This document shows, in pieces, positions 10,192-25,932 of a DNA stretch of 28,931 nucleotides. The stretch's first letter is position 1. Each line of letters starts with the position of its first letter. Made by a program: the position numbers and the translations under genes. The notes below the pieces were generated by a model. It searched no databases and was not told the DNA's origin. It saw only the letters and a program-made list of their open reading frames with translations. The DNA comes from a virus, in IMG/VR virus record IMGVR_UViG_3300027736_000184, positions 1 to 28,931 of that record. One strand, 5' to 3'.

Positions 10192-11358
10192 ATGGAATTT
10201 ATAGTAACTACTGCTTTAAAGAAGTTATTGAAGCTTAAAAAGCGTATAAAGGTAGTTAGAGGTGGTACATCTGCTTCTAAAACCTTTTCTATTTTACCTA
10301 TACTAATAGATAGAGCAATTAAAACACCTAAATTAGAAATAAGTGTAGTATCTGAATCTATACCACATTTACGCAGAGGTGCATTAAAGGACTTCTTAAA
10401 AATAATGATGGCACTAGGTAGATATAGCGATAATCAATTTAATAAGAGTACACTTAAATACACTTTTGGTAATGGTAGCTATATTGAATTCTTTAGTGTA
10501 GATCAACCTGATAAATTAAGAGGAGCTAGAAGAAATGTACTTTATGTTAATGAGTGCAATAATGTAGATTTTGATTCTTACTATCAGTTAGCTATTAGAA
10601 CAAGTGGTGATATATGGTTAGATTACAATCCAAGTAGTTTGTTTTGGGTAGATAGAGAAATAATAAACCAAGAAGATGTTGACTTCATCACACTTACCTA
10701 TTTAGATAATGAAGCACTACCTGAAACTATTGTAAAAGAAATTGAATCAGCAAAAGAGAAATCTAAAACTTCTAGTTATTGGGCTAACTGGTGGCAAGTA
10801 TACGGACTAGGTTTAACAGGCTCTTTAGAAGGTGTATGTATTCCTGATTGGCAAGAAATACAATTACCTGCAGAAGCTAGGTTATTATGTTACGGAATGG
10901 ACTGGGGTTATAGTAATGATCCTACAAGTTTAATTGCTATGTACAAGTATAACGATGCTTTTATATTTGATGAGTTAGTATACCAAAAAGGTTTACTTAA
11001 TTCTGATATAAGCGACCTACTTAAAACAAATGAAGTTAACGATATTATTTATGCTGATAGTGCAGAGCCTAAATCAATAGCTGAGTTAAACAGTTATGGG
11101 CATAATATATTACCAGTTAGTAAAGGTAGAGATAGTATCGTATATGGGCTTAATTTAATTAATCAAAATAAAGTTTATGTAACATCTAGGAGTAAGAACT
11201 TAATAAACGAATTAAGAAACTATGTATGGATGGTAGATAAAACAGGAAACAAATTAAACAAACCTATTGATGCTTACAATCACGCTATAGATGCTATGCG
11301 TTATGCACTTACTTCACAATTAGAGAATCCACATAAAGGAAATTACTTTGTATATTAA
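10192..11358 (+). CDS. terL: Terminase large subunit
   Basis: This 388-aa packaging motor has the ATPase Walker A-type GGTSASKT (residues 24-31), Walker B VLYVNE (116-121) and WLDYNPSS as the coupling region. The RNase H-like nuclease domain contributes Asp237 in GMDWGYSNDPTS, Asp289 in IIYADSAEPKS and Asp367 in HAIDAMRYAL. It is close to the compact PBSX/Terminase_3 type. It cuts concatemeric DNA and drives it into the procapsid through the portal (23205). All catalytic residues appear intact. Confidence 0.95.
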   Translation: MEFIVTTALKKLLKLKKRIKVVRGGTSASKTFSILPILIDRAIKTPKLEISVVSESIPHLRRGALKDFLKIMMALGRYSDNQFNKSTLKYTFGNGSYIEFFSVDQPDKLRGARRNVLYVNECNNVDFDSYYQLAIRTSGDIWLDYNPSSLFWVDREIINQEDVDFITLTYLDNEALPETIVKEIESAKEKSKTSSYWANWWQVYGLGLTGSLEGVCIPDWQEIQLPAEARLLCYGMDWGYSNDPTSLIAMYKYNDAFIFDELVYQKGLLNSDISDLLKTNEVNDIIYADSAEPKSIAELNSYGHNILPVSKGRDSIVYGLNLINQNKVYVTSRSKNLINELRNYVWMVDKTGNKLNKPIDAYNHAIDAMRYALTSQLENPHKGNYFVY

Positions 11359-11511
11359 ATGACTTACGGAGAAATAATATCAGTTATACAATGCTACATA
11401 CACCACAGTACAGGACAGCAAGTAAATATTAACTTACCTAGAAATATAGGTGAGATTAAAAAGATGAAAGCTATGTATGAAGTAGCTATCCAAATGTTAA
11501 AGTTTTGTTAA
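11359..11511 (+). CDS. Small protein, 50 aa, function unknown
   Basis: The ORF starts immediately after the terL stop (TAA ATG) and reads MTYGEIISVIQCYIHHSTGQ, ending AMYEVAIQMLKFC. It looks like a beta strand/helix mini-domain with a Cys at each end region (Cys12, Cys50). Its last bases contain the repeated GTTAAAG motif of the next promoter region. No family recognised. Confidence 0.65.
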   Translation: MTYGEIISVIQCYIHHSTGQQVNINLPRNIGEIKKMKAMYEVAIQMLKFC

Positions 11512-11546
11512 AGTTTTTTTAGTTTAAAATATTGTTTGTAGTTTTA
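11494..11546 (+). promoter_or_regulatory. Possible promoter region before the small-gene cassette
   Basis: Two copies of TGTTAAAGTTTT-type sequence (11496-11506 and, with G for the first T pair shifted, 11507-11517) precede possible -7 boxes TATTGTTTG (11530-11538, one base too long) and TAGTTTTA (11539-11546, last base off). The upstream GTTAAAGT motif is shared with the promoter regions at 1392 and 6826, but the -7 box is imperfect. Confidence 0.35.
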
Positions 11547-11569
11547 CACCATAATTAAAAACAAAAACT

Positions 11570-11659
11570 ATGAAATACTTTTTACAGAACAAACGACCAC
11601 AGCTTACATTTGCTTATTTAGTGTTAATCTATGTAATAATTCAAATAGCTAGAATATGA
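11570..11659 (+). CDS. Tiny membrane peptide, 29 aa
   Basis: The sequence MKYFLQNKRPQLTF is followed by the hydrophobic helix AYLVLIYVIIQIARI (residues 15-29), giving a single-pass membrane peptide with a basic N-terminus. The ATG follows an A-rich leader (aattaaaaacaaaaact) and its TGA overlaps the next start (ATGA), which supports translation. Function unknown. Confidence 0.5.
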   Translation: MKYFLQNKRPQLTFAYLVLIYVIIQIARI

Positions 11660-11886
11660 TAGATCCTACAGAAACTTGGACAGGTGATTGGGAGTATAGC
11701 AACGAAAGAAACTTCTGGCACAATCAGGACTTTGAAAGTGATGAAGCTAAGATATATGTTAAAGAACTAGAAGCTAAAATATCTAGCACAAGAAAAGAAC
11801 TAACTAAGCTTAGAGATTATTTTAAAACAACCAATCAAATATTACTTACAAATGAACTTGAAGGAATACTTAAAAGACTACAATAA
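11656..11886 (+). CDS. Small coiled-coil protein, 76 aa
   Basis: The N-terminus is acidic and Trp-rich (ETWTGDWEYSNERNFWHNQD); the remainder is a coiled coil (VKELEAKISSTRKELTKLRD, NELEGILKRLQ). It starts in an ATGA overlap with the membrane peptide before it. No family recognised; the cassette position after terL is where phages often carry accessory genes. Confidence 0.7.
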   Translation: MIDPTETWTGDWEYSNERNFWHNQDFESDEAKIYVKELEAKISSTRKELTKLRDYFKTTNQILLTNELEGILKRLQ

Positions 11887-11890
11887 AACA

Positions 11891-12109
11891 ATGGAAGCTT
11901 TTAAATGGTGTATAGAGAATGGTATTACTATTTACCCTATCTGCTTACAAGAGTTTTATATGGAAGGCAAAAGAAAGATAAACAAAGTAAAGATAGAAAT
12001 AAATATAAACGGAAGTAAGATACAGGGTAAACAAATATACAAGCAGGATCAGGAACTGCACAATAAAATAAACGAATTATATTTGCATTATAAAAACAGA
12101 GCTTCATAA
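11891..12109 (+). CDS. Small protein, 72 aa, function unknown
   Basis: I start this at Met 11891, 4 bases after the preceding stop and in an A-rich leader; an alternative start at 11852 would overlap the previous gene by 35 bases. The protein reads MEAFKWCIENGITIYPICLQ, then a basic stretch (GKRKINKVKIEININGSKIQ) and a helical tail (ELHNKINELYLHYKNR). It may be a small DNA- or protein-binding module. A terminator follows 27 bases after the stop. Confidence 0.65.
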   Translation: MEAFKWCIENGITIYPICLQEFYMEGKRKINKVKIEININGSKIQGKQIYKQDQELHNKINELYLHYKNRAS

Positions 12110-12135
12110 TTAGTAGGTTAAATTTTGTTTGGTTA

Positions 12136-12162
12136 GGGTAGTCAGAAATGGCTACCTTTTTT
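12136..12162 (+). terminator. Rho-independent terminator closing the small-gene cassette
   Basis: GGTAG (12137-12141) pairs with CTACC (12152-12156), extended by C12143-G12151 across a one-base bulge, followed by a run of T. The 11-mer AATTTTGTTTG (12121-12131) precedes the hairpin by 4 bases, as at the ninG terminator. Confidence 0.7.
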
Positions 12163-12203
12163 ACTTTATACAAATAGCTAGATTAATTATTTTTAAAATA
12201 AAA

Positions 12204-12887
12204 ATGAAAGTAGAAATTAATGTACCTGAAACTTTATCTGAAGTAAAATTAGAACAGTATCAAAAGTACGTTAAACTTATAACTGATAATGAAGCTTCTG
12301 ATTTTGTAAATCAAAAAACACTAGAGATATTTTGTAACCTACCTTTAACAGATGTTATTAGAATTAGTTATAGTTCAGTTGATGAAATACTAACACACTT
12401 AAATAGTTTGTTTTCTAAAAAGTATTTTCTTAAACCTACATTTGAATTATACGGAAAAGAGTTTGGTTTTATTCCTAACCTAGAAGAAATTACATTTGGT
12501 GAATATATAGATTTAGATACTTATTTAAAAGATACTTCTACTTGGCACAAAGCTATGGCTGTGTTATATAGACCAGTTAAAAAGAAGATAAAAAATATGT
12601 ATCTAATAGAAGATTATAACGGCTCTGATAAATACGCTGAAGTAATGAAAGATAGTCCTTTAGATGTTATGCTAGGTGCTATGGTTTTTTTTTACACTTT
12701 AGGCAGCGAATTACTGAACGATACGATGGACTATTTACAAGCTCAGAAGCTGGAACGATTGGAGATTACTCAAGGGAGCAACAATTCTCGGCTAAATATG
12801 GATGGTATCAATCAATCTATGGAATCGCTAAAGGAGATCTCACAAAGTTTGATATGGTTACCAAGCTTCCATTACACCAATGCTTAA
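12204..12887 (+). CDS. Tail assembly chaperone, zero-frame product (gpG-like), 227 aa
   Basis: I start at Met 12204 after the leader taaaataaaa; a longer reading from 12129 runs back through the terminator and is rejected. The protein begins MKVEINVPETLSEVKLEQYQ and is mostly helical (VNQKTLEIFCNLPLTDVIRI). Size, position upstream of the tape measure and a frameshift site suggest the lambda G/GT type chaperone that coats the tape measure during tail assembly. From 12692 the last 195 bases are shared with another open frame; in this stretch the codons (ctg, cga, cgg, tcg, ggg, acg) are unusual for this genome, as expected if two frames are constrained. Beyond FFYTLGSELLNDTM the zero-frame tail is less protein-like than the alternative. 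Confidence 0.7.
   Translation: MKVEINVPETLSEVKLEQYQKYVKLITDNEASDFVNQKTLEIFCNLPLTDVIRISYSSVDEILTHLNSLFSKKYFLKPTFELYGKEFGFIPNLEEITFGEYIDLDTYLKDTSTWHKAMAVLYRPVKKKIKNMYLIEDYNGSDKYAEVMKDSPLDVMLGAMVFFYTLGSELLNDTMDYLQAQKLERLEITQGSNNSRLNMDGINQSMESLKEISQSLIWLPSFHYTNA
12686..12692 (+). promoter_or_regulatory. Candidate -1 ribosomal frameshift site (T TTT TTT)
   Basis: Nine T (12685-12693) are read GTT TTT TTT TAC in the zero frame, so T TTT TTT fits the X XXY YYZ slippery form. The -1 frame is closed by TAG at 12653-12655 and then open to TAA 12953-12955, so a shift must occur after 12655; this run is the best slippery sequence in that interval. Confidence 0.65.
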
Positions 12888-12955
12888 CTTGGTTAACATT
12901 TGAAAAAGAAAAAACAGAAATAGAAATAGCAAACATAAAAAGAAATGGTATATAA
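12692..12955 (+). CDS. Tail assembly chaperone -1 frame extension (gpGT-like; fusion about 250 aa with 12204-12692)
   Basis: The -1 frame encodes 87 codons with no usable early ATG, ending at TAA 12953-12955. Its C-terminal part is strongly protein-like: SAKYGWYQSIYGIAKGDLTK, then FDMVTKLPLHQCLTWLTFEK and EKTEIEIANIKR, with a dense aromatic/charged pattern. The combined product would be 163 residues from the zero frame plus 87. The extension ends 11 bases inside the next gene, the kind of coupling seen elsewhere here. In lambda the GT extension recruits the major tail protein. A missing T in the 9-T run would equally make one continuous gene look split, so sequence error must be excluded. Confidence 0.65.
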   Translation, partial: LHFRQRITERYDGLFTSSEAGTIGDYSREQQFSAKYGWYQSIYGIAKGDLTKFDMVTKLPLHQCLTWLTFEKEKTEIEIANIKRNGI

Positions 12956-13367
12956 TTTAATTGAAACTATAAAAGGAGCTTTAATAAACGAGCCTTTTTG
13001 CAATACAGTAACAGAAGGTGATATATTTCAAGTTGATTTAAATAAACGCACTATATTCCCTTTAACGCATATTATAGTTAATTCTTCAACGCATCAAGGT
13101 AATGTTATTTCTTTTAACGTTACAATGCTTTGTATGGATATGATAAACCAAAAAGAGCAAGACAATAAAGTGGATATTTGGAATACTCAGCATTTATTAG
13201 CTACAAGAGTTTTAGATATTTTAAACAGAGGTGATTTAAGAGATGGTACTTACGAGTTAACTGGCAACCCAAGTTATGAGCCTTTTACTGAAAGATTTGA
13301 AAATGATTTAGCAGGATGGGCAGTTACATTTGATATTCAAGTTAGAAACAATATGAGTATATGTTAA
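12945..13367 (+). CDS. Probable tail terminator protein
   Basis: This 140-aa protein is alpha/beta with an N-terminal helix (MVYNLIETIKGALINEPFCN), strands (IFPLTHIIVNSSTHQGNVIS, FNVTMLCMD), a helix with WNTQHLLATRVLDILNRGDL and a terminal strand pair (WAVTFDIQVRNNMSIC). The architecture and place between chaperone and HK97 gp10-like genes match tail terminator proteins, which cap the tail tube at the head-proximal end. I recall close relatives in Bacteroidota phages by the NTVTEGDIFQVDLN and PFTERFENDLAGW segments. It starts inside the chaperone -1 frame and overlaps the next gene by 7 bases. Confidence 0.65.
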   Translation: MVYNLIETIKGALINEPFCNTVTEGDIFQVDLNKRTIFPLTHIIVNSSTHQGNVISFNVTMLCMDMINQKEQDNKVDIWNTQHLLATRVLDILNRGDLRDGTYELTGNPSYEPFTERFENDLAGWAVTFDIQVRNNMSIC

Positions 13368-13873
13368 AACTAGAAGAAACGCAAAAGTATTTAAATGGTT
13401 TTGCTAAGTATGTTATACAACAATCTAGGAGTAACTTAACTAAGCAAGGTAAGAACGTAAATAAAAAGCTTTACGATAGTTTAGATAGCGAAATAGAAGT
13501 AAGTGCTAATAGTTTTAGATTATCTTTCTTAATGGAAGATTATGGAGCATTCCAAGATAAAGGAGTTAGTGGTACAAAAAAGAAATATAACACACCATTT
13601 AGCTACAAATCTAAAATGCCACCTGCAAAACCTATAACTGAGTGGGTTAAAAAAAGAGGGTTTCAGTTTAGAAAGAAAGATGGTAAGTTTATGAGTTACC
13701 AACAAACAAGTTATTTAGTTAGAAGTGCAATTTACAAGAATGGTATTAAGCCTAGTTTGTTTTTTACTAAACCATTTGAAGCAGCATTTAAAAGATTACC
13801 AGATGAATTAGTAGAAAAGTTTGGTTTAGATATAGAAAATTTAATGAAACATAGTTTAAAAAATATAAAATAA
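13361..13873 (+). CDS. HK97 gp10-like neck/tail completion protein
   Basis: At 170 aa, the protein contains an N-terminal helix (TQKYLNGFAKYVIQQSRSNL), a strand-rich core ending in EDYGAFQDKGVSGTKKKY, then a conserved-looking segment PPAKPITEWVKKRGFQF and a C-terminal FFTKPFEAAFKRLPDELVEK. The YG-x-FQDKG and FFTKPFExAFKRLP features match head-tail or tail completion proteins of Bacteroidota phages as I know them. It would sit at the head-tail joint. The one-base stop/start overlap with 13873 indicates a continuous tail operon. Confidence 0.62.
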   Translation: MLKLEETQKYLNGFAKYVIQQSRSNLTKQGKNVNKKLYDSLDSEIEVSANSFRLSFLMEDYGAFQDKGVSGTKKKYNTPFSYKSKMPPAKPITEWVKKRGFQFRKKDGKFMSYQQTSYLVRSAIYKNGIKPSLFFTKPFEAAFKRLPDELVEKFGLDIENLMKHSLKNIK

Positions 13874-14985
13874 TGAACATATTTAATTGTAGAAGTCCGT
13901 ATATAATTAGAATTGATGGTGATTCAGCACAGGTTGCTACTAAAATAGAGTTGTTTATTTGGAAGGTAGGAGAAAGTGAGCCAACTACACCAACTAAAAC
14001 AATAGAGAAAACTAAATATAGTGATACTCAGTATATCAACTATTATAATATATCTCCATTTGTTTACGATTTGATTAATACATTTGCAGAGCCAACTTAT
14101 GCTTTTGCTTATAATATTAGATATAAATTATATTATAAAACTACAGGAGATTATTCTTTACTTGAAGATGAAACTTTAATTAGTGTTTGTGGCTATAATG
14201 CTTATAACAATCCTAATTATATTTGGTCAACTTCTATAGCTTTATTAACTAATTATGGTAGCACATTAGATTATATTTATGATAATAGTATGATGCCGAA
14301 TTTAGATTTTATAATTGATTTTGCTGCTACTGTTAATGATATAAGATTTGAATGGATTAGTACTGAATTTGTAGAAGATCATAATGAAATATTTACCTAT
14401 AATATTGATTATATAAATGATGGCTCTTTATTTGCAGATAGAGTTCAAATGGTACAAAACGCATCAGAAGGAATTTTAGTTAGTACAGAATTTAATATTT
14501 ATTATTATGATGGTGATACTTATACATCAATTTATCAATGTGTATTAACTCCTATTTGCGAAAATAAATATACTCCTTTAGGATTAAGATTTGTAAATAG
14601 AAAAGGTGGAGTACAGCAGCTTACTTTATTTAAAAATAATACTAAAACTATTGATGTTAAAGCTTCAGATTATAATACTAATACTTTTACAGAAGGTTAT
14701 CCAGTTTACGATCAAACCTTAGGGCAAAAAAGAGTATTTAATAAAAATGGTAATGTAACTGTTAAAGCTAATACAGGTTGGTTAAATGAAAGTGAAAATA
14801 TAAACATACAGGATATTATGTTATCTGAAATGCTTAGTTTGACTTCTGCAAATTCTGATTATGCTTATGGAGCTGTAACATTAAAGTCAAGTTCTCAATT
14901 AATGAAAACGCATTTAAACGAGAAAGTAATTAACTATGAGTTAGAGTTTGAAGTAGCAAGTAGTTTAATAAATAATGTAGTATAA
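13873..14985 (+). CDS. Tail/baseplate structural protein, 370 aa
   Basis: The sequence is rich in Tyr, Asn, Thr and beta strands (IDGDSAQVATKIELFIWKVG, YNIRYKLYYKTTGDYSLLED), with an N-terminal opening FNCRSPYIIRIDG and a core FVNRKGGVQQLTLFKNNTKT that resembles the NxxGGxxxxTF segment of Bacteroidota phage tail proteins. No enzyme motif is visible. Position just before the 763-aa tail protein and the tape measure suggests a baseplate or distal tail component. Coupled by a one-base overlap to both neighbours. Exact role unassigned. Confidence 0.6.
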   Translation: MNIFNCRSPYIIRIDGDSAQVATKIELFIWKVGESEPTTPTKTIEKTKYSDTQYINYYNISPFVYDLINTFAEPTYAFAYNIRYKLYYKTTGDYSLLEDETLISVCGYNAYNNPNYIWSTSIALLTNYGSTLDYIYDNSMMPNLDFIIDFAATVNDIRFEWISTEFVEDHNEIFTYNIDYINDGSLFADRVQMVQNASEGILVSTEFNIYYYDGDTYTSIYQCVLTPICENKYTPLGLRFVNRKGGVQQLTLFKNNTKTIDVKASDYNTNTFTEGYPVYDQTLGQKRVFNKNGNVTVKANTGWLNESENINIQDIMLSEMLSLTSANSDYAYGAVTLKSSSQLMKTHLNEKVINYELEFEVASSLINNVV

Positions 14986-17276
14986 TGGTATCAGTTGAAA
15001 TTTATATTAAAGTAGGGGAAGAATACAAGCGATTAGATTTGTTTAAAGATGAGAAGATAAGTTTAACTTCATCTATTCAAAATGTAAATGATTTAAGCAA
15101 GGTATTTACCGATTATTCAAATTCCTTTACTTTACCTGCATCAAAAGCAAATAACCAAATATTTAACTATTGGAATGAATCAGGAGTTAATGATGGTTTT
15201 GATCAAAGAATAAGATACGATGCAATAATAGAAATAAATACAATACCATTTAGAAAAGGTCAAATACAAATAGAAAAAGCAAACGAAAAAAATAATAGAG
15301 TTGAAAGCTTCTCAGTTACTTTTTATGGTAAAGTAAAACAGATTAAAGATTTATTTAAAGAAGATAAATTAAGTATCTTAGATTATAGTAGTATTAATCA
15401 TAATTACGGATATAATGAAGTTAAAGATAGAATAGATGGTACTATTGATGATGGAGTATGTTATCCATTAATAGGAAACCAAAATAAATATGAATATTTA
15501 ACAGGAACTTCAAATGATATTACTTTAGGTGGTACTCCTACAAGGTCAATAGTATATACTGATTTATTCCCTGCTATTCCTGTAAATAAAATATTTGAAT
15601 TTATAGAAAATAAATACAATATAACTTTTACAAGTAGTTTATTTACTTCTTCATATTGGACTGATTTATATTTATATTGTAAGAATATAGAAAAAACTGA
15701 TGCATATAGTTTTATTTCAAGAGTTAATTTTAATACAACTACTCAACCTAGAAATATAAATGTTACAAATGATACTTATACTATTGATTGGGTTGTAAAT
15801 GATGGTGTTACAAATTGTACTTCTCAAACAATTTTTTTAGTTATTTATCCAAGTATTACAAATATTCCTTATAGATTAAAAGTATATACTTCTGCAGGAT
15901 TATTAGCAGTTTATAATAATTTAATAGGTAATGCAGGTATTGATTTATTTACATATTTACAAAATCATAATATAACTTATACGATGTGGTTTGAAATTGA
16001 ATCTACTGCATCATTTTCTTATACTTCACATTTACAAGAAGAAAAATATTATGGTAGTGTTTTTACAAGTTGGGGGCAACAAATAAATACTGCAGATGGA
16101 AGCAACCCAACATCAACACAAATTATACAAATTGGTACTTTAGTACCTACAATGAAAATTATTGATTTTTTTAATGGAATAATTAAAATATTTAATTTAA
16201 CTATAACAGCTATTAGTGAAACTGAATTTAATTTAGAGCCATTAGAATTTTATTATAATTATGGTAAATATATAGATATTAATAATTATGTAATTAATGA
16301 TAGCGTAGATATAGAAAGAACAAAACTTTACAAAAAATTATCATTTTTACACGAAAAAAGCGAGAACATATTAAATAATTTTTTTAGAAATAATTTTAAT
16401 AGGGGTTATGATTATGGAGATTTATTATATGAAGATGAATTTTCAAATGAATCTTCTACTTATGAAATTAAAACTCCTTTTGAAGATGTAATGTGGGAAA
16501 GAAACCCTGTTGATGCAAATTTTTTAACTTCTTCTTTAATTGATAAAGATTTAAAACCATATAAACCTAAACCTATTTTAATGTATAAAAACAATATAGG
16601 TGGTGATGCTACAACATTAGCTATTCCAATTAAATTATTTGATGGTACTAATTACAATGATTTACCTAGATATGTTAGATTTTCAAATGAATTATATTTA
16701 AATGGAAGTATTGGAACAATTAATTTTAATTCTGAACAATCAGTATGGGACTCAAACTCAATAACAAATAATTCTTTATTCAATTTATGGTATAGAAATT
16801 ATATTAGTGGGTTATATAATATTAGATGTAGAATAGTTAAATTAAAATCTATTATACCTGTTACAATGCTATCAGATATTAAATTAAATGATAAAATAAT
16901 TTATAAGGACAAAAAATATATTATAAATCAATTTACTTCAGATTTAACTACAGGAGAAGTAGATTTTGAATTAGTATCTGATTTTAGAGAAATAACAAAT
17001 CAAACTAATGCAGGTGGAAGATTTGCAATTCAACAAGATTTTAATATTGATAATACTGCACAAGATTTAGAAGTTACTATTTTAAAATTAGATAGTGAAT
17101 ATTATGATGTTAAATATGCTCCTACTTCATACGATAGTTCAGGTAATTATGCAGATGATACTTTTATAGTACCTATAGATGCAAATGGAACAGGAAATGT
17201 AGCTTTTAAACAAATAGAAATAACATATCATAATCCTGATTACAAACAATACATAAACATTATACAAAATGCTTAA
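14985..17276 (+). CDS. Large tail/baseplate protein, 763 aa
   Basis: The N-terminal 150 residues carry a characteristic segment, KISLTSSIQNVNDLSKVFTD followed by YSNSFTLPASKANNQIFNYW, that I recognise from large tail or baseplate proteins of Bacteroidota phages. The middle is Asn/Tyr/Thr-rich and beta-structured; the segment LVPTMKIIDFFNGIIKIFNL near residue 384 is a likely helical linker. The last part includes MLSDIKLNDKIIYKDKKYII and a beta-sandwich-like tail with the pattern QQDFNIDNTAQDLEVTI. It probably forms the baseplate hub or tail tip and may include the cell-contact surface. No lytic domain was recognised. Confidence 0.62.
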   Translation: MVSVEIYIKVGEEYKRLDLFKDEKISLTSSIQNVNDLSKVFTDYSNSFTLPASKANNQIFNYWNESGVNDGFDQRIRYDAIIEINTIPFRKGQIQIEKANEKNNRVESFSVTFYGKVKQIKDLFKEDKLSILDYSSINHNYGYNEVKDRIDGTIDDGVCYPLIGNQNKYEYLTGTSNDITLGGTPTRSIVYTDLFPAIPVNKIFEFIENKYNITFTSSLFTSSYWTDLYLYCKNIEKTDAYSFISRVNFNTTTQPRNINVTNDTYTIDWVVNDGVTNCTSQTIFLVIYPSITNIPYRLKVYTSAGLLAVYNNLIGNAGIDLFTYLQNHNITYTMWFEIESTASFSYTSHLQEEKYYGSVFTSWGQQINTADGSNPTSTQIIQIGTLVPTMKIIDFFNGIIKIFNLTITAISETEFNLEPLEFYYNYGKYIDINNYVINDSVDIERTKLYKKLSFLHEKSENILNNFFRNNFNRGYDYGDLLYEDEFSNESSTYEIKTPFEDVMWERNPVDANFLTSSLIDKDLKPYKPKPILMYKNNIGGDATTLAIPIKLFDGTNYNDLPRYVRFSNELYLNGSIGTINFNSEQSVWDSNSITNNSLFNLWYRNYISGLYNIRCRIVKLKSIIPVTMLSDIKLNDKIIYKDKKYIINQFTSDLTTGEVDFELVSDFREITNQTNAGGRFAIQQDFNIDNTAQDLEVTILKLDSEYYDVKYAPTSYDSSGNYADDTFIVPIDANGTGNVAFKQIEITYHNPDYKQYINIIQNA

Positions 17277-17418
17277 AAATATTTTAGATTTATTAAAACT
17301 TCAAAAAGGTTATGGATCTACAGAATCTATAGCAATAGCAAAAGGAGTAAATAAAATACCAGAAACAACAAAAGAACTAAAACAATACTTTAAAAGATTA
17401 GCAAATGGCAATAACTAA
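17269..17418 (+). CDS. Small protein overlapping the tape measure start, 49 aa
   Basis: The sequence MLKNILDLLKLQKGYGSTES continues IAIAKGVNKIPETTKELKQY and ends FKRLANGNN. It overlaps the previous gene by 8 bases and the tape measure gene by 14 bases in different frames. The helical, basic sequence gives no function; position right before the tape measure suggests a tail assembly or coupling role. Confidence 0.55.
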   Translation: MLKNILDLLKLQKGYGSTESIAIAKGVNKIPETTKELKQYFKRLANGNN

Positions 17419-19447
17419 GACAATAGAAATAGATGTAAATTCTAATAAAGCTGAGGGAGAGGTAAAAGACCTTATAAAAGGTTTTGAAACTTTAAACGAT
17501 TCTATTAAAGATGTAGGTAAAACTGGTGCTAAGGCTTTAGATAATATAGAAAAGAATACTAAAGAAGCAGAAAAATCTACTAAAACATTAGCAGAAGGTT
17601 TTAAATCTACAGGTGTTGCTATGAAAGCTATGGGTATTGGGCTTATAATAAGTGCATTTTCTATGCTTAAAGATATATTTATGTCTAATCAAAAAGTAGC
17701 TGATACGTTTAGTGCAGTTATGGGTACTGTTGCTAATGTATTTACTCAAGTTACAAATATTGTAGTTTCTGTAATTGAAAAAGTAAGTGCTTCTACAGGT
17801 GGTTTTAAAGCTCTTAGTGCTGTAGTTAGTGGTTTATTAACTTTATCTTTAACTCCGTTAAAACTTACGTTCTATGCTCTTAGTTTAGCTATTGATGAAA
17901 TTAATTTAGCTTGGGAGCAAAGTATATTTGGAGATGGAGATCCTACAAAAATTAAAAAGTTAACTAAAAGTATTGATGAAACTAAAGACACTTTAAAAAA
18001 GGTAGGTAACGATGCAGTAGAAGCTGGTAAGAAAGTAGCTGTTAATATTGGTGATGCTATTGGTGAAGTAGGTGCTGTAGTAGAAGGTACTATTGATGGT
18101 GTTAGTAAAATATCTATTAAAGGAGCTTACGAACAAGCTAAGGCAAATGTACAATTACAAAATACTGCAAAATTAGCAGAAGCAGAACAAGCTAGATTAG
18201 TAGAACAATATGATAGACAAGCTGAAAAATTAAGACAAGTAAGGGATGATGATAGAAATAGTATTGCAGATAGAATAGCTGCTAATGAAAAATTAAAAAA
18301 TGTTTTAAATAATCAACAAGCTGCTATGTTAGGTCAGGCTGATGCTCAAATATCTGCAGCAAAAGCTACACTTCAACAAAACAATAATATAGAAAACCAA
18401 GTAGCTTTAACTAATGCTTTAGCAAATAGAGAAGGTGTACTTGCACAAATTGAAGGTTTAAGATCGGAACAACAAGCAAACAATTTAGCTTTAAGTAAAG
18501 AGGCTTTAGATTTAACTAAAAGTAAAAATGAAGCAGAAACTCAATTAGCAATAGAGCAAAAACAATTCAACGCTGAAAGATTAAAAGACGAAGAAGCTAT
18601 TTTATTAGCTCAAAAAGATGCTTTAGAATACAGCAAAAAGGTAGAACTTGAAAGATTACAAAACGTAATAGATTCAACTAAAGCAGGTACTCAGGCTAGA
18701 GTAGATGCAGAGAATGAATATGCTGCTAAAAAGCAAGAAGTAGAAAATGCTTTAACTACTAAACAAGATGAAATAGATACTTATAGATTAAATAAGAAAA
18801 TAGAGAATCAACAATTAGTAGCAGATAACGAAGCTTTAAATTTTCAAACTAGATTAGAAGCTTTAACTGAGCAAGAAAGATTAATAACTGAAGCTACCAA
18901 TATTTCGGAAACAGAACGTACAGCATTATTAAAAGCGAATGCAGAAGCTAGAACTGAAATAGCAACTAAAGAAAAGGAAGCTAAATTAAAATTAATGGAT
19001 GCAGTTTCTAGTGGTTTATCTATGGCTGCAGGTGAACTTGGAGAGGCTACTGCTGCTGGTAAAGCTGCTGCTGTTGCTGCTGCTACAATATCTACCTATA
19101 CTGCTATTGCAGGTCAATTACAAGCGTTTTCTAAAGTTCCTATTCCAGGTTATGCTATTGCTCAGGCTATTGTAACAGGTGCTACAGGTTTACTACAAGT
19201 TAAAAAGATTTTAGAAGTAAAAACTCCTGAAGGTGGAGGTGGTGGATCTGCCCCAAGTATTGGAAGTGCAGGTGGTGGTGCTGCTGCTCCTGCTTTTAAT
19301 GTAGTTGGTGCAGGTGGTGCTAATCAAATTGCTCAAGTAATGAATAATCAAGGAATGCCACCAGTTCAAGCTTATGTAGTTGCTAGTAATGTAACATCAG
19401 CACAAAGTTTGAATAGAAACATAGTAAACAACGCTACTTTAGGCTAA
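17405..19447 (+). CDS. Tape measure protein
   Basis: The 680-aa protein has the profile of a tape measure. A charged N-terminal region is followed by hydrophobic helices at about 74-92 (KAMGIGLIISAFSMLKDIF), 102-127 and 135-165. A long Ala/Glu/Gln/Lys coiled coil follows (about 240-530), then an Ala/Gly hydrophobic region and a Gly-rich segment (GGGGGSAPS). It ends QAYVVASNVTSAQSLNRN, an ending I know from tape measures of Bacteroidota phages. The protein sets tail length; 680 residues at 0.15 nm each predicts about 100 nm. It is the last gene before a 41-base gap leading to the head genes. Confidence 0.9.
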   Translation: MAITKTIEIDVNSNKAEGEVKDLIKGFETLNDSIKDVGKTGAKALDNIEKNTKEAEKSTKTLAEGFKSTGVAMKAMGIGLIISAFSMLKDIFMSNQKVADTFSAVMGTVANVFTQVTNIVVSVIEKVSASTGGFKALSAVVSGLLTLSLTPLKLTFYALSLAIDEINLAWEQSIFGDGDPTKIKKLTKSIDETKDTLKKVGNDAVEAGKKVAVNIGDAIGEVGAVVEGTIDGVSKISIKGAYEQAKANVQLQNTAKLAEAEQARLVEQYDRQAEKLRQVRDDDRNSIADRIAANEKLKNVLNNQQAAMLGQADAQISAAKATLQQNNNIENQVALTNALANREGVLAQIEGLRSEQQANNLALSKEALDLTKSKNEAETQLAIEQKQFNAERLKDEEAILLAQKDALEYSKKVELERLQNVIDSTKAGTQARVDAENEYAAKKQEVENALTTKQDEIDTYRLNKKIENQQLVADNEALNFQTRLEALTEQERLITEATNISETERTALLKANAEARTEIATKEKEAKLKLMDAVSSGLSMAAGELGEATAAGKAAAVAAATISTYTAIAGQLQAFSKVPIPGYAIAQAIVTGATGLLQVKKILEVKTPEGGGGGSAPSIGSAGGGAAAPAFNVVGAGGANQIAQVMNNQGMPPVQAYVVASNVTSAQSLNRNIVNNATLG

Positions 19448-19488
19448 ATAACAATTTAATATAATATTAATTTTTAAATAAAAACTAA

Positions 19489-20088
19489 ATGAATTTAATT
19501 GAATTAATTATAGACGATAACGAAGAATTACAAGGTGTAGAAGCTATTAGTGTAGTAGAATCACCTGCAATAGAATCGGACTTTGTAGCTTTAAAAACAG
19601 AAGAAGTTAAACTTGCTGAGGTAAGTAAAGAAAAACGTATCTTAATGGGTGCTGTATTAATACCTGAAAAACCTATCTATAGAAGAAATGGAGATACTGA
19701 ATATTACATTTATTTTTCAAAAGATACAGTAGTAAAAGCATCTCAATTATTTTTAAAGAAAGGTAATCAATCTAATAGTACTTTAGAACATCAAAAAGCT
19801 ATTGAAGGGTTAACAGTAGTTGAAAGTTGGATAGTAGAAGATTTAACTAAAGACAAATCTGCTTTATATAATTTAAGTGTACCTGTAGGTACTTGGATGG
19901 CTTCTATAAAAGTTGATAATGATGAAATTTGGAATGACTTTGTAAAAACAGGTAAGGTAAAAGGATTTTCACTTGAAGGATATTTCGCTGATAAATTAGA
20001 ATCTAAAAAAGAGTTAAGCAAAGAACTTACAGAAGAAGAAAGTTTAATAGAGCAAATTAAAGAAGTATTAAGAAACTATGAAAATTAG
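19489..20088 (+). CDS. XkdF-type prohead serine protease
   Basis: The 199-aa protein opens with a VESPAIESDFVAL segment (residues 23-35), followed by ILMGAVLIPEKPIYR, the core of the XkdF-like phage protease family. LEHQKA with His101 and GFSLEGYF with Ser161 are the likely catalytic His and Ser; YNLSVPVGTWMASIKVDND is also typical. The enzyme would process the scaffold and capsid proteins within the prohead. It lies before the scaffold and capsid genes as expected, although the portal is downstream rather than upstream. Its 3' end overlaps the HAD-like gene by 11 bases. Confidence 0.82.
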   Translation: MNLIELIIDDNEELQGVEAISVVESPAIESDFVALKTEEVKLAEVSKEKRILMGAVLIPEKPIYRRNGDTEYYIYFSKDTVVKASQLFLKKGNQSNSTLEHQKAIEGLTVVESWIVEDLTKDKSALYNLSVPVGTWMASIKVDNDEIWNDFVKTGKVKGFSLEGYFADKLESKKELSKELTEEESLIEQIKEVLRNYEN

Positions 20089-20371
20089 TTTTGATTACGA
20101 TGAAACTATCTCAACTAAAAAAGGTGGAGATTTAGCAAGGCAATTAATTGCTGATGGTAATGAAGTTTATATTATATCTGCTAGAAATTTAAAAGTAGGT
20201 ATGATAGATAGAGCTAAAAGTATTGGAATACCTATAAGTAGAGTATACGCTACAGGTAGTAATAAAGAAAAGATAGCTAAAGTTAAAGAATTAAATATAG
20301 ATACTCACTACGATAATAATAGTGATGTAATAAAAGAGTTAGGATCAATAGGTAAATTATTCACTAATTAA
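20078..20371 (+). CDS. HAD-superfamily-like phosphatase, 97 aa
   Basis: The N-terminus MKISFDYDETIST has Asp6-x-Asp8-x-Thr10, the nucleophile motif of HAD hydrolases. EVYIISARN gives the motif II Ser34, Lys63/Lys65 in TGSNKEKIAKVKEL can serve as motif III, and HYDNNSDVI with Asp79 as motif IV. The cap domain is missing and the protein is small, so it is a minimal HAD fold. Its place between the prohead protease and the capsid genes is unusual for a metabolic enzyme. Substrate unknown; nucleotide or protein phosphate are equally open. Confidence 0.75.
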   Translation: MKISFDYDETISTKKGGDLARQLIADGNEVYIISARNLKVGMIDRAKSIGIPISRVYATGSNKEKIAKVKELNIDTHYDNNSDVIKELGSIGKLFTN

Positions 20372-20378
20372 AATAAAA

Positions 20379-20570
20379 ATGAAAAAAACAAAAAGTAAAA
20401 CAAGCCCAGAAGGTGGGAGAAGAGGTTGTCTATGTAATGACGGAACTTATAAATCAGAATGCTGCAACGGAGATTTACAAAATCAAGGTGTAGGAACTTT
20501 AGTAAGTCAAGGTGTAAGTGAAGTAACTAATACTAACCAAGCTAGAGTAATAAGTAACTCAAGAGGTTAA
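20379..20570 (+). CDS. Small Cys-rich protein, 63 aa, head region
   Basis: The N-terminal half (KTSPEGGRRGCLCNDGTYKS then ECCNGD) has four cysteines, C-x-C and CC, in a compact pattern that suggests metal binding or a disulfide knot. The second half (LQNQGVGTLVSQGVSEVTNT) is low complexity. Similar small proteins occur beside capsid genes in Bacteroidota phages as I recall, with no known function. Starts 7 bases after the HAD-like gene. Confidence 0.7.
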   Translation: MKKTKSKTSPEGGRRGCLCNDGTYKSECCNGDLQNQGVGTLVSQGVSEVTNTNQARVISNSRG

Positions 20571-20633
20571 AAATATAACAAATAAATAATTGTTAATTTT
20601 AAAATAAAGTATTTAACTAAATTAAATATAAAT

Positions 20634-21206
20634 ATGTCAAATGTAATTAATCAAATCAAAACCATTTTGGGAATGGAAGTAAAACTTGCCCAAATGAAGT
20701 TAGATAACGGAACGGTTTTAGAAGCTGAGGCTTTCGAAGCAGGTATGCCTATTTTCATCGTTAATGGTGAAGATAGAGTAGCTCTACCTGTAGGTGAGTA
20801 TACCTTAGAAGATGGTATGATGCTTATTGTAACAGAAGAAGGTATTATTGCTGAAATTAAAGAAGCTATGATGCCACAAACTGAAGCAGAAATGCCTGAA
20901 GTAGAAGTAGAAGTTGAACAAGAAATGTCAGAAACTTCAACTCCTAAAAAAGTTATCGAATCTACAATTAGAGAATCTCACTTTTCTAAAGAAGAAGTAG
21001 ACGCTTTAAAAGCAGAAATCGAAGCTTTAAAAACTGAATTAGCATCTTTAAAAGCTGTTGAAGTAGTAGAGGAAGTAGAATTATCTGCTCAACCTTTAGT
21101 ACACAACCCAGAAGCTAAATCTGAAGTTAAATTAAACTTATACTCACAATCAAGAACTAGAACTACTTTTGATACTGTGTTAAGTAAAATTGCAAATATT
21201 AAATAA
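20634..21206 (+). CDS. Probable capsid scaffolding protein
   Basis: The 190-aa protein has an N-terminal beta domain (VKLAQMKLDNGTVLEAEAFE, IVNGEDRVALPVGEYTLEDG), a Glu/Met-rich acidic linker (EVEVEVEQEMSET), a coiled coil (KEEVDALKAEIEALKTELAS) and a basic end with SRTRTTFDTVLSKIANI. Acidic linker, coiled coil and basic C-terminus are typical of scaffolds, where the tail binds the capsid protein. It lies 21 bases before the major capsid gene. The leader is highly AT-rich with no clear promoter box. Confidence 0.68.
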   Translation: MSNVINQIKTILGMEVKLAQMKLDNGTVLEAEAFEAGMPIFIVNGEDRVALPVGEYTLEDGMMLIVTEEGIIAEIKEAMMPQTEAEMPEVEVEVEQEMSETSTPKKVIESTIRESHFSKEEVDALKAEIEALKTELASLKAVEVVEEVELSAQPLVHNPEAKSEVKLNLYSQSRTRTTFDTVLSKIANIK

Positions 21207-21227
21207 TAACAAATTAAACATTAAAAA

Positions 21228-22181
21228 ATGGCTACTACAACTAGTATTACAACTACTTACGCTGGTGAATTTGCAGGTAAATATATTTCTGCTGCTTTAT
21301 TATCAGCTTCTACTATCGAAAACGGTGGTATTGAAGTAAAACCAAACATTAAATACAAAGAAGTAATTAAAAAAATCGCTACTGATGCTATCGTTAAAGA
21401 TGCAACTTGTGACTTTACTGCTACTTCTACTGTAACTTTAACTGAGAAAATTTTACAACCTGAAGAATTTCAAGTAAACTTACAACTTTGTAAAAAAGAC
21501 TTCCACTCAGATTGGGAAGCTGTACAAATGGGTTATTCTGCTTTTGATTCTTTGCCACCATCATTTGCTGATTTCATTTTATCTCACGTAGCTGCTAAAG
21601 TAGCTGAGAAAACAGAACAAAACATTTGGAAAGGTGTAACTGCTAACGCAGGAGAATTCAACGGAATTGCTACTTTAGTTGCTTTAGATGCTGCTTTACC
21701 TGCTGCTCAAGAGGTTGCTGGTACTACAGTTACTTCTTCTAACGTAGTTGCTGAGTTAGGAAAAGTAGTAGATGCTATTCCTGCTTCACTTTACGGAAAA
21801 GAAGATTTATATATCTATGTATCTCAAAATATTGCTAAAGCTTATGTACGTGCTTTAGGTGGTTTTGGTGCTTCAGGTTTAGGTGCTAATGGTACTAACG
21901 CTATGGGTACTCAATGGTGGAATAACGGAAGTTTATCATTTGACGGAATTAAACTTTTCGTTTGTAATGGTATGGCTGCTAACACTGCTATCGCTACTTT
22001 GAAAAGTAATTTATTCTTTGGAACGGGCTTACTTAACGATCTAAATACTGTGAAGTTGCTAGATATGCAAGATTTGGACGGATCAGAAAATGTGAGAGTA
22101 GTTGTACGTTTCACTGCAGGTGTACAATATGCTATTGTTGAGGATATCGTAACTTACGGAATCACTAACTCTGCTAACTAA
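21228..22181 (+). CDS. Major capsid protein
   Basis: The 317-aa protein is Ala/Thr/Gly-rich with few charged clusters and shows the pattern of HK97-fold capsid proteins of Bacteroidota phages, including EEFQVNLQLCKKDFHSDWEA, QNIWKGVTANAGEFNGIATL and a C-terminal MQDLDGSENVRVVVRFTAG. Codon usage favours gct, act, tct and aac, consistent with high expression. It follows the scaffold gene and is closed by a strong terminator, so the protease-to-capsid genes could form one late transcript. A stretch near 22017-22105 uses ttg, cta, gtg and acg more than its surroundings. Confidence 0.87.
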   Translation: MATTTSITTTYAGEFAGKYISAALLSASTIENGGIEVKPNIKYKEVIKKIATDAIVKDATCDFTATSTVTLTEKILQPEEFQVNLQLCKKDFHSDWEAVQMGYSAFDSLPPSFADFILSHVAAKVAEKTEQNIWKGVTANAGEFNGIATLVALDAALPAAQEVAGTTVTSSNVVAELGKVVDAIPASLYGKEDLYIYVSQNIAKAYVRALGGFGASGLGANGTNAMGTQWWNNGSLSFDGIKLFVCNGMAANTAIATLKSNLFFGTGLLNDLNTVKLLDMQDLDGSENVRVVVRFTAGVQYAIVEDIVTYGITNSAN

Positions 22182-22200
22182 TAATTAGCAAACTAACTTA

Positions 22201-22234
22201 AAAGGGTGGTGCAAAAACACCATCCTTTTTTTTT
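22201..22234 (+). terminator. Rho-independent terminator after the capsid gene
   Basis: An 8-bp stem GGGTGGTG (22204-22211) / CACCATCC (22218-22225), with one G-U pair and an A-rich loop, is followed by nine T. It is the strongest T tract in the window. Confidence 0.87.
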
Positions 22235-22263
22235 ACTAATAACTTAAAATAAATATATAAATT

Positions 22264-22791
22264 ATGGCTTGTGATATTTCATTAGGTAGAATCGAACCTT
22301 GTAAAGATTCAGTAGGTGGATTGAAAGCTGTTTATTTCGTAAATTATGGTGATGCTACAGGGTACACTTACAATGGCACTAATACAGATGTTATTGATGA
22401 TGTAGCTGGAACTCCAACAGCATACAAATACGATTTAAAAGGTGCTTCTACATTTACACAAAACGTAAATAGCTCTAGAGAAAATGGTACTACATTTTAC
22501 GAGCAAGTACTTGAACTAACATTTAAAAAATTATCTATTGTAGATAACAAACAACTTAAACTTATGGCTTATGGTAGACCACAAGTTATTGTTGAAGATA
22601 ACAATGGTAATTTCTTTTATTCAGGTTTAAAACACGGAATGGATGTAACTGGTGGGACTATCGTAACAGGTGGTGCTATGGGAGATTTAAGTGGATATAC
22701 TTTAACTCTTACAGGAATGGAGCCAGTACCAGCTAACTTTATCGGAGATACTTTAGCAGGTGCAGGGTTTACTGTAGTTTCAGGATCTTAA
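22264..22791 (+). CDS. Major tail protein (tail tube)
   Basis: The 175-aa protein starts MACDISLGRIEPCKDSVGG, the MAC-x-GR-x-EPCKD-x-GG opening I know from major tail proteins in Bacteroidota phages. It is beta-rich (STFTQNVNSSRENGTTFYEQ, FKKLSIVDNKQLKLMAYGR) and ends with YTLTLTGMEPVPANF. It would polymerise into the tail tube around the tape measure. Being isolated between two terminators suggests separately tuned, high expression. It lies 2.8 kb downstream of the tape measure instead of upstream, an unusual order. Confidence 0.8.
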   Translation: MACDISLGRIEPCKDSVGGLKAVYFVNYGDATGYTYNGTNTDVIDDVAGTPTAYKYDLKGASTFTQNVNSSRENGTTFYEQVLELTFKKLSIVDNKQLKLMAYGRPQVIVEDNNGNFFYSGLKHGMDVTGGTIVTGGAMGDLSGYTLTLTGMEPVPANFIGDTLAGAGFTVVSGS

Positions 22792-22811
22792 TATTTAATT
22801 ATATTACTTTT

Positions 22812-22839
22812 AAAGGGTGGCTAATTGCTACCCTTTTTT
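22812..22839 (+). terminator. Rho-independent terminator after the major tail gene
   Basis: Stem GGGTGGC (22815-22821) / GCTACCC (22827-22833), one G-U pair, loop TAATT, followed by six T. A weak promoter-like CAAATTTG (22848-22855) lies just downstream, before the next gene. Confidence 0.85.
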
Positions 22840-22882
22840 AGTTATAACAAATTTGTAGTTTTTTAATTTTTAAAATAAAACA

Positions 22883-23212
22883 ATGATAATACTAAAAGAA
22901 CAGGAAGGAGTACAAACATTAAAATTAGCAATTAATGGCTGCAGTGCTACTTCAATAGTTTTAGTAGATGAAGAAACTAATTTAGAAACTGAAATTAATT
23001 GTGAGTTTTATATATCTGCTTACTATATGGAAATTAATGTAGTATTAGATGTAAAAGAAAATAAATACTATACAGTTAAAGTTAAAAATGATACTGAAGT
23101 AGTTTATACAGGTTTAGCTTTTTGTACAAATCAAGATATTGTAGATTACACTATAAACAAAAATGTTTACACAGAACATACTACAGATAACGAATTTATA
23201 ATTTATGAATAA
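22883..23212 (+). CDS. Virion-associated beta protein, 109 aa
   Basis: The protein is almost entirely beta strand (MIILKEQEGVQTLKLAINGC, KYYTVKVKNDTEVVYTGLAF), with CTNQDIVDYTIN and a closing DNEFIIYE. It resembles small proteins beside portal or capsid genes in Bacteroidota phages, perhaps an Ig-like head decoration or connector part; this is from memory of the pattern. It overlaps the portal gene by 8 bases. Confidence 0.6.
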   Translation: MIILKEQEGVQTLKLAINGCSATSIVLVDEETNLETEINCEFYISAYYMEINVVLDVKENKYYTVKVKNDTEVVYTGLAFCTNQDIVDYTINKNVYTEHTTDNEFIIYE

Positions 23213-24995
23213 TATCCACATTTTAAATTTAAGTGCTTATACTTCTCCGATAATAGAGGAAAGCAAGAATAAAGATTTTGTACAATATGGTGCAGATAAT
23301 AACTATTTTCAATACTTAATTGATAGATTTCTTTACTCTAATACTAACCACGCTATTATTACAGGTGTAACTAATATGGTTTATGGTAAAGGTATTGCTG
23401 CTACTGATTCTAATAGAAAGCCTGATCAATATGCACAAATGATTTCCTTAATAAAAGGAGATTGTTTAAAAAGAGTAGCTTTAGAAAGAAAGCTTTTAGG
23501 AATGGCTGCTATGCAGGTAGTTTACTCAAAAGGTAAAGTTACTAGAATAGACCACTTCCCTATGCAAACCTTAAGAGCTGAAAAATGCAACGATAAAGGA
23601 GAGATTGAAGCTTGGTACTATCACCACGATTGGAGTAAATATAGAAATGGTGATGTATTAAAACGTATTCCTGCTTTTGGTTTTGGTAACGGAAACGAAG
23701 TAGAACTTTATATAGTTAAGCCTTATATTAGTGGATATTATTATTATACACCTATTGACTATTCAGGTGCTTTACCTTATGCTAAATTAGAAGAAGAAAT
23801 TGCAGATTATTTAATTAATGATGTAATGAATGGTTTTAGTGGTACTAAAGTTATCAACTTCAATAACAATATACCACCTGAAGAAAAAAGACAAGAAATT
23901 GCAAATGATGTTAAGCGTAAATTAACAGGTGCTAAAGGAGATAAAGTAATAGTTTCGTTTAACGCTTCACAAGAGAATAAAACTACTGTAGATGATATTC
24001 CTTTAAACGATGCACCTGCTCACTATGAGTATTTATCTACTGAATGTTTTGAAAAGTTAATTGTAGGTCACAGAGTAACTTCTCCAATGCTTTTAGGTAT
24101 TAGAGATACAGGTGGTGGTTTAAGCAATAACGCAGATGAAATTGAAACAGCAACTAGATTATTTGATAATATTGTTATTAGACCTTATCAATTAGAAATA
24201 ATAGATGCCTTAGATGTTATTTTAGCAGTTAATGGTATATCATTAAACTTATATTTTAAAACAATACAGCCTTTAGATTTTATCGATGTTAATACTGCTA
24301 ATGCTACAACTAATGAAGAAGAAACTGGAGTTAAAATGGCTGCAGTATGTTGTGCAAGTGATAAAGATACTTCTGTGGATTTAGCAGATGCTTTAACTGA
24401 AAAAGGCGAAGTATTAGGTGCTGAATGGTTTTTAATTGATGAAAGCGAAGTAGATTTAGATGCAGAAGAAGAATTAGATGCAGAAATTAACTTCTTAAAC
24501 AACAAAGGTAAAAAAGATAAAAATTTACTTTCTAAATTAGTTGATTTAGCTTCTACTATTACAGGTAGACCTAATTCAAGTTCTAATCAAGATGAAAATA
24601 TAGATGGTATTCGTTTTATTACACGCTATAAATATAGTGGTGATGAAACAGGAGAAAGAGAATTTTGTAAAAGAATGTTAGCAGCTGATAAACTTTACAG
24701 AAAAGAAGATATAGAGCAAACTTCTTCTAATGAAGTCAATCCTGGACAAGGTCACAATGGTAATAATTATGATTTATTTCTTTACAAAGGTGGAGTAAAT
24801 TGTAAGCACAAATGGTTAAGACAAACTTACGTTTCTTTTGATAATGTAAATATAGATGTAAATAACCCTAATGCTACAACTATTTCAACTAATAAAGCAG
24901 AAAAATACGGATATAGAGTAAGAAATGATAAAGAAGTAGCTATGAAACCTTACGATATGCCTAATCACGGACACCACCCAAATTATAACAAATAG
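23205..24995 (+). CDS. Portal protein with C-terminal Cys/His extension
   Basis: The first 400 residues of 596 form a portal-like protein: DFVQYGADNNYFQYLIDRFL, a region with LPYAKLEEEIADYLINDVMN, and HRVTSPMLLGIRDTGGGLSN, the last being typical of the portal crown/stem. An acidic linker (DLDAEEELDAEINFL) leads to a distinct C-terminal domain (about 467-575) with ITRYKYSGDETGEREFCKRM, LYRKEDI and GGVNCKHKWLRQTY. In many phages this last domain is found at the end of minor head proteins; here it appears fused to the portal. The portal forms the dodecameric DNA gate with TerL. Confidence 0.8.
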   Translation: MNNIHILNLSAYTSPIIEESKNKDFVQYGADNNYFQYLIDRFLYSNTNHAIITGVTNMVYGKGIAATDSNRKPDQYAQMISLIKGDCLKRVALERKLLGMAAMQVVYSKGKVTRIDHFPMQTLRAEKCNDKGEIEAWYYHHDWSKYRNGDVLKRIPAFGFGNGNEVELYIVKPYISGYYYYTPIDYSGALPYAKLEEEIADYLINDVMNGFSGTKVINFNNNIPPEEKRQEIANDVKRKLTGAKGDKVIVSFNASQENKTTVDDIPLNDAPAHYEYLSTECFEKLIVGHRVTSPMLLGIRDTGGGLSNNADEIETATRLFDNIVIRPYQLEIIDALDVILAVNGISLNLYFKTIQPLDFIDVNTANATTNEEETGVKMAAVCCASDKDTSVDLADALTEKGEVLGAEWFLIDESEVDLDAEEELDAEINFLNNKGKKDKNLLSKLVDLASTITGRPNSSSNQDENIDGIRFITRYKYSGDETGEREFCKRMLAADKLYRKEDIEQTSSNEVNPGQGHNGNNYDLFLYKGGVNCKHKWLRQTYVSFDNVNIDVNNPNATTISTNKAEKYGYRVRNDKEVAMKPYDMPNHGHHPNYNK

Positions 24996-24997
24996 AT

Positions 24998-25510
24998 ATG
25001 GCTTACGCACTATTAATTTCTACAGAGGATATTAAAAAGTTTACTATTCTAAATGGTAATTTAGATGTAGATGATTTTATACAATATATAAAAATAGCAC
25101 AGGATGTTACTATCCAAAATTATTTAGGTACTGATTTATACAATAAATTCCAGGATCTTATAATTTCAGGTGATATTAATGAAGCAGAGTTTTTAAGCTA
25201 TAAAACGCTTTTAAACACTTATATTAAACCAATGCACATACACTGGAGTATGGTTTATTATTTACCATTTGCATCTTATACAATAGCTAATAAAGGAGTA
25301 TTTAAACATACTTCTGAGAATGCTAATACTTTAGAGAAGTTAGAAATAGATTATTTAGTAGAAAAGGAAAGAGATATTGCAGAACATTACACTCAAAGGT
25401 TTATTGATTATATGTGTTTTCAGCAATCGGAATTCCCTGAGTACACTTCTAATTCAAATGAAGATATGAATCCTGATACAAATAATTTCTATGGAAGTTG
25501 GGTGCTTTAA
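24998..25510 (+). CDS. Head-tail connector protein (DUF6712-like)
   Basis: The 170-aa protein has the pattern MAYALLISTEDIKKFTILNG, DDFIQYIKIAQDVTIQNYLG then TDLYNKFQDL of the DUF6712 type, which I associate with head completion or adaptor proteins in Bacteroidota phages. It is all-helical, as gp6-like adaptors are, with a central YIKPMHIHWSMVYYLPFASY. It lies 2 bases after the portal gene, where a connector is expected. The acidic C-terminus (EDMNPDTNNFYGSW) may reach toward the next component. Confidence 0.75.
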   Translation: MAYALLISTEDIKKFTILNGNLDVDDFIQYIKIAQDVTIQNYLGTDLYNKFQDLIISGDINEAEFLSYKTLLNTYIKPMHIHWSMVYYLPFASYTIANKGVFKHTSENANTLEKLEIDYLVEKERDIAEHYTQRFIDYMCFQQSEFPEYTSNSNEDMNPDTNNFYGSWVL

Positions 25511-25622
25511 AAAACAAAGAAAGAAAGTAGGTAATTATAAGCCTAAAGAACAAAACAAAGAAAAACTACAAATATTTTTAACTAAGTTAGAAAAAAATGG
25601 GACTGAATTTTCAAAATATTAA
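25491..25622 (+). CDS. Small basic protein in an alternative frame, 43 aa
   Basis: The ORF reads MEVGCFKKQRKKVGNYKPKE and ends QIFLTKLEKNGTEFSKY. It overlaps the connector gene by 20 bases and the next gene by 26 bases, bridging an otherwise empty 86-base gap. Overlaps of this kind are common here, but the length is short and the AT-rich sequence makes chance ORFs possible. Function unknown. Confidence 0.45.
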   Translation: MEVGCFKKQRKKVGNYKPKEQNKEKLQIFLTKLEKNGTEFSKY

Positions 25623-25932
25623 AGGTGATACTTTCGAACAAGTAAACTTTGAAGTAAAAATAAACGATGTAGCAGTAGATTTAACTGATGCAGTTATTCG
25701 TATGCAACTTAGAAAAGAATATGGTGGTGTAATTGCTTTATCTTTAACTTCAGTTGCTAATGCTGGTATAACTATTACATCTCCTGCAAATGGTTTGTTT
25801 AAAATAAATAAACAAGTTATAGATGTAGCACCTTATAATTACATTTACGATATTGAAATTCATTTTGATAATGGAGATATTAAGACTTGGATCAGTGGTA
25901 ACTTTCTAATTTTAGCAGATGTCACAAGATAA
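25597..25932 (+). CDS. Baseplate/tail accessory protein, 111 aa
   Basis: The protein starts MGLNFQNIKGDTFEQVNFEV and carries DLTDAVIRMQLRKEYGG and NYIYDIEIHFDNGDIKTW. The GDTF opening, a Dx-IRMQLR strand and a DI-x-D-GDIKTW strand resemble the N-terminal domain of upper-baseplate proteins (BppU-like), which join fibres to the tail. It overlaps the fibre gene by 14 bases, which fits a fibre-attachment part. The call is by pattern only. Confidence 0.62.
   Translation: MGLNFQNIKGDTFEQVNFEVKINDVAVDLTDAVIRMQLRKEYGGVIALSLTSVANAGITITSPANGLFKINKQVIDVAPYNYIYDIEIHFDNGDIKTWISGNFLILADVTR

Follow-up and report, generated by a model that had tools for sequence, protein, structure and literature searches.

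Programmed recoding at a conserved T9 run, with a gene end read in two frames, in a phage gene probably akin to tail chaperones

The locus considered here raises the question of what a run of nine T does at the point where two reading frames of a phage gene meet: whether it is a programmed recoding site, what slips on it, and whether the DNA that follows truly codes for protein in both frames. The window, i.e., the whole stretch analysed (28,931 nucleotides of virus DNA, IMG/VR record IMGVR_UViG_3300027736_000184), had been predicted to contain a programmed -1 frameshift on this run.

The recoding site and its conservation in relatives

The zero frame, the T9 run and the -1 frame are all present at the coordinates given in Table 1. 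The heptamer T_TTT_TTT occupies 12686–12692 in the zero frame, and a TAG at 12653–12655 directly precedes the -1 open frame. The absence of an early ATG from the -1 frame was confirmed, the earliest start-type codon after the slip being the ATG at 12854, inside the -1 domain. A separate start for the -1 frame was ruled out: the window has no start-type codon close to the slip, and relatives share no conserved one. A shift downstream of the T9 run, at 12740–12800, where the zero frame looks protein-like, was also rejected, since the -1 homology begins at the T run.

Table 1. Features of the recoded gene and its surroundings
Feature	Coordinates	Strand	Description
Zero-frame ORF	12204..12887	+	227 aa: 163 aa through the slip codons and a 64-aa zero-frame tail
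T9 run (slippage site)	12685..12693	+	Zero-frame codons GTT TTT TTT TAC; 9–10 T in 306/306 readable relatives
-1 frame open stretch	12656..12955	+	87 aa from 12692 on, giving a 250-aa trans-frame product
Stretch read in two frames	12693..12887	+	195 nt; synonymous suppression and zero-frame stop avoidance
First 24 post-slip zero-frame codons	12693..12764	+	Protein conservation (YxLGxELLxxTxxYL helix)
Next gene	12945..13367	+	Overlap of 11 nt between its ATG start and the -1 frame end
Probable tape measure protein	17405..19447	+	Weak PHROG tape-measure matches, E 0.005–0.014

The zero-frame tail includes LEITQGSNNSR and the -1 tail includes YGWYQSIYGIAK. The ending of the -1 frame, first described only as protein-like, proved to be a conserved domain in relatives (motif KWGWYxSIYxLAxGDxxxFDxVTKL...FEKEK) and is modelled as helices with a mean pLDDT of 80. 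In the annotation of phages P12024L and P12024S, the -1 part stands as a hypothetical gene of its own; annotated relatives list this domain only in such a truncated form, and the products of the gene are thus misannotated. The ATG of the next gene commonly overlaps the -1 stop in relatives, as ATGA in 19 of 40, which suggests that the next gene is coupled to -1-frame termination.

About 300 loci were collected from IMG/VR, genome contigs, annotated phages and Flavobacteriaceae genomes, with some contigs represented twice. All 306 relatives with a readable site have T_TTT_TTT in the zero frame; two further loci end before the slip site and lie outside this count. Among the carriers are the cultured Nonlabens (Persicivirga) phages P12024L and P12024S and a Galbibacter pacificus isolate contig, so that the site is seen in isolate genome contigs as well. 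The comparison with relatives therefore revealed a conserved slippery run, and no single uninterrupted frame was found among the first 223 relatives, whose zero-frame tails were checked for the GW motif of the -1 domain. The in-frame heptamer and the conserved -1 tail domain bear out the predicted -1 shift, and we regard programmed recoding at the T9 run as nearly certain. Homopolymers are mutable and error-prone, which speaks for an assembly or sequencing error, or for phase variation through replication slippage at the run; however, the constancy of the frame relation across 306/306 relatives refutes either as a general cause, no fused ORF occurs in the 223 relatives checked, and T9 is also present in the cultured P12024L and P12024S and in an isolate contig titled 413x coverage, leaving this explanation highly improbable. 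The gene appears to belong to a large unannotated phage group with Bacteroidota-type hosts. One contig with a short zero-frame tail (L104) is binned as Pseudooceanicola (Pseudomonadota), reflecting either a non-Bacteroidota host or a binning error.

RNA polymerase or ribosome at the T run

A ribosomal -1 heptamer requires just seven T. The run in this family consists of nine T in 295 loci and ten in 11, and never of seven or eight (306 loci). The T9 runs take the registers 2+6+1 (263 loci), 1+6+2 (28 loci) and 3+6+0 (4 loci), the rest being the eleven T10 runs. Across 75 non-redundant loci, loss of T on the left side (codons GCT, GGT, ACT and AGT) is always paired with two T on the right, and a locus that has lost T on the right side (CTC, GCT and GTG) invariably has a complete TTT on the left. 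When the sides were permuted among these loci, a mean of 7.0 runs shorter than nine was expected and none was observed, zero being reached in 0 of 200,000 permutations; this procedure treats the loci as independent though they are related, but the register changes are spread over the tree, on which at least 12 are required. The T10 locus L146 is sister to the L103 lineage with its shifted T9, as expected of a T10 intermediate. Compensation on the opposite side, together with such T10 intermediates, is the trace expected if selection acts on a run of nine and not on a heptamer or on particular residues. Elsewhere in about 1.06 Mb of related loci, poly-T runs of at least nine inside ORFs were very rare, with two unique contexts. 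Runs of A or T are selected against in the coding regions of many bacteria from a length of nine (PMC1088944).

We consider slippage of RNA polymerase on the T9 run to be the probable main cause of the shift (probability about 0.6), because the run is never shorter than nine, the loss of flanking T is compensated, and no downstream RNA structure was found in folds of 50–120 nt from 66 sequences, computed without pseudoknots (mean z about 0; 1–2 of 66 below -2). The polymerase would add an extra U in a fraction of the transcripts, so that U9 mRNA would be translated into the zero-frame form (227 aa) and U10 mRNA into the -1 form (250 aa), with a common N-terminal part of 163 aa. In transcripts that had lost one U (U8), translation would run into a stop no more than five codons on in most relatives (36 of 40); this early third-frame stop may follow from the proteins encoded in the other two frames. 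Every such run also contains U_UUU_UUU, and ribosomal -1 slippage on this heptamer possibly contributes.

The shift could instead be mainly ribosomal, as in lambda G/GT and other tailed phages, with the additional T's maintained by the residues that the two frames encode. All readable relatives have the heptamer in frame, known phage tail-chaperone shifts are ribosomal -1 shifts (PMC5009743), and the flanking T's suit hydrophobic codons of both frames: conservation of T is partly attributable to a second-position T in a zero-frame V/L/I/F codon and to a TTR Leu codon in the -1 frame. However, a heptamer maintained in this way leaves the lack of any run of seven or eight T across 306 loci, the opposite-side compensation and the lack of a stimulatory structure in the 66 folded sequences (again without pseudoknots) standing against it, and we judge it rather doubtful as the main mechanism. 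Of the original prediction, the -1 shift at the T9 run stands, whereas a purely ribosomal slip on the heptamer gives way to polymerase slippage on at least nine T as the favoured agent.

Coding in the two overlapping frames

The zero frame had been singled out for running on far past the slip. It does so for 64 codons here and for 47–84 codons in most relatives, but the tail has only 16–42 codons in Inhavirus, the L103 group, the L104 group and other clades, and these short forms show that members of the family do not always have a long zero-frame tail. In the structure model, a helix at residues 153–191 spans the slip point into the zero-frame tail with falling confidence, and a second helix after it is poorly predicted.

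As had been predicted, both frames of the shared stretch proved to be under constraint, which is clearest over the first ~24 codons. Synonymous differences were counted in 33 pairs of relatives at codons with an unchanged -1 residue, with the expectation taken from the upstream zero-frame region; the overlap showed 271 against 521.5 expected (O/E 0.52). Along the overlap, O/E was 0.27–0.38 at codons 1–24, 0.77–0.84 at codons 24–35 and 0.37–0.44 at codons 36–47. Part of this reduction does not come from the overlap, because the -1-only stretch past the zero-frame stop also had an O/E of 0.68. Among substitutions silent in the -1 frame, only 2 led to gain or loss of a zero-frame stop against 22.8 ± 4.6 expected, whereas controls in non-coding frames or in the post-stop stretch fitted expectation (47 vs 49.4, 140 vs 146.4, 234 vs 243.2, and 11 vs 13.9). 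When -1 codons were resampled, the mean chance of a zero frame open as far as observed was 0.03 (62 loci), and the third frame had 440 stops against 448 expected. Conservative residue changes in the zero frame were in excess over the first 24 codons (z 5.5); beyond them, z was -0.8 at codons 24–35 and 2–3 further on, values within the control spread. The calibration of this BLOSUM-based test is only rough (z from -2.3 to +2.7 in control frames), and the distal z of 2–3 is not claimed as proof. The zero-frame motif GxGIxxSMxxLKE is a shadow of the -1 motif WGWYxSIYxLAxGD and was given no weight of its own; all tests relied on were conditioned on the -1 frame.

Taken together, the stop-avoidance, synonymous and conservative-change tests show that the zero frame is selected to stay open over the whole tail, and that the tail is clearly selected as protein over its first ~24 residues. 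The part beyond these residues may have no function as a peptide and be open only so that ribosomes run toward the next gene, for coupling or for protection of the mRNA; both slippage mechanisms would fit such an arrangement. The whole tail shows strong stop avoidance while residue conservation is clear only in the first 24 codons, and the length of the tail varies from 16 to 84 codons, as such a role would allow; against it, synonymous suppression is strong again at codons 36–47 (O/E 0.37–0.44). We regard this view of the distal tail as a serious possibility, if a little short of probable.

Genome context, significance and comparison with known systems

The recoded gene follows the terminase large subunit gene and is separated by four ORFs from a probable tape measure gene; in P12024L, it likewise lies directly after the terminase gene, and the two ORFs that come next are comparable in size. 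By analogy of gene position, size and the recoding itself, the two forms probably act like lambda gpG/gpGT in tail assembly. The predicted tail-chaperone identity is upheld to this extent, but searches of Pfam and PHROG returned no tail-chaperone match that would name the product, and those of PDB sequences and PDB folds were negative. A BFVD fold search retrieved uncharacterised phage proteins, along with two annotated tail chaperones at insignificant E values of 0.24 and 1.1. The zero-frame ORF belongs to phrog_32199 (unknown function; E 1.7e-16), a profile matched by all 60 zero-frame homologues scanned.

The order of genes across 10192–27985 is unusual: the genes for the head maturation protease and the portal come after the terminase, the recoded gene and the tape measure gene, which places head genes downstream of tail genes. 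In the portal ORF (23205–24995, 596 aa), the stretch after about residue 450 reads like an extra C-terminal domain, and the portal profile phrog_33693 spans nearly the entire length of the ORF. The other T9 of the window, at 22226 (within 22204–22234), lies beyond the ORF at 21228–22181, where an inverted repeat, GGGTGGTG...CACCATCC, precedes it, and looks like part of an intrinsic terminator.

We tentatively propose, at somewhat under even odds for the whole, that tail-assembly genes of a widespread family control the proportion of their two chaperone forms by RNA polymerase slippage at an obligatory run of 9–10 T, rather than by a lambda-like ribosomal shift, with most of the DNA of the -1 domain truly dual-coding. 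If so, phages would have two routes, the ribosome or RNA polymerase, for setting the dose of a tail chaperone, and the slippage rate of the host polymerase would directly affect virion assembly. The family also offers a natural alignment of hundreds of two-frame gene ends, useful for studying the origin and upkeep of overlapping coding regions. A recoded phage gene of tail type is of a known kind. For transcriptional slippage in phage tail genes, no report was found in the open-access literature, seen mostly as titles and abstracts.

The phrog_32199 profile is 175 aa long, the length of the zero-frame ORF of Inhavirus P12024L and P12024S, and the -1 domain lies outside it. Programmed transcriptional slippage at A9 or T9 occurs in Thermus dnaX, IS elements, Shigella mxiE and Citrobacter tssM, and these systems share with the present one, in which no clear structure follows the run, a homopolymer of about nine and two products per gene; unlike them, the candidate described here lies in a phage structural-gene region. 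With lambda gpG/gpGT and its equivalents in tailed phages, the present gene shares two products from one gene, a common N-terminus, a -1 shift and a place upstream of the (here probable) tape measure gene. It differs from the lambda pair in slipping on T9, where the lambda site is G_GGA_AAG, in the long zero-frame tail that shares about 195 nt with the -1 domain, and in the four other ORFs that stand between the recoded gene and the tape measure gene.
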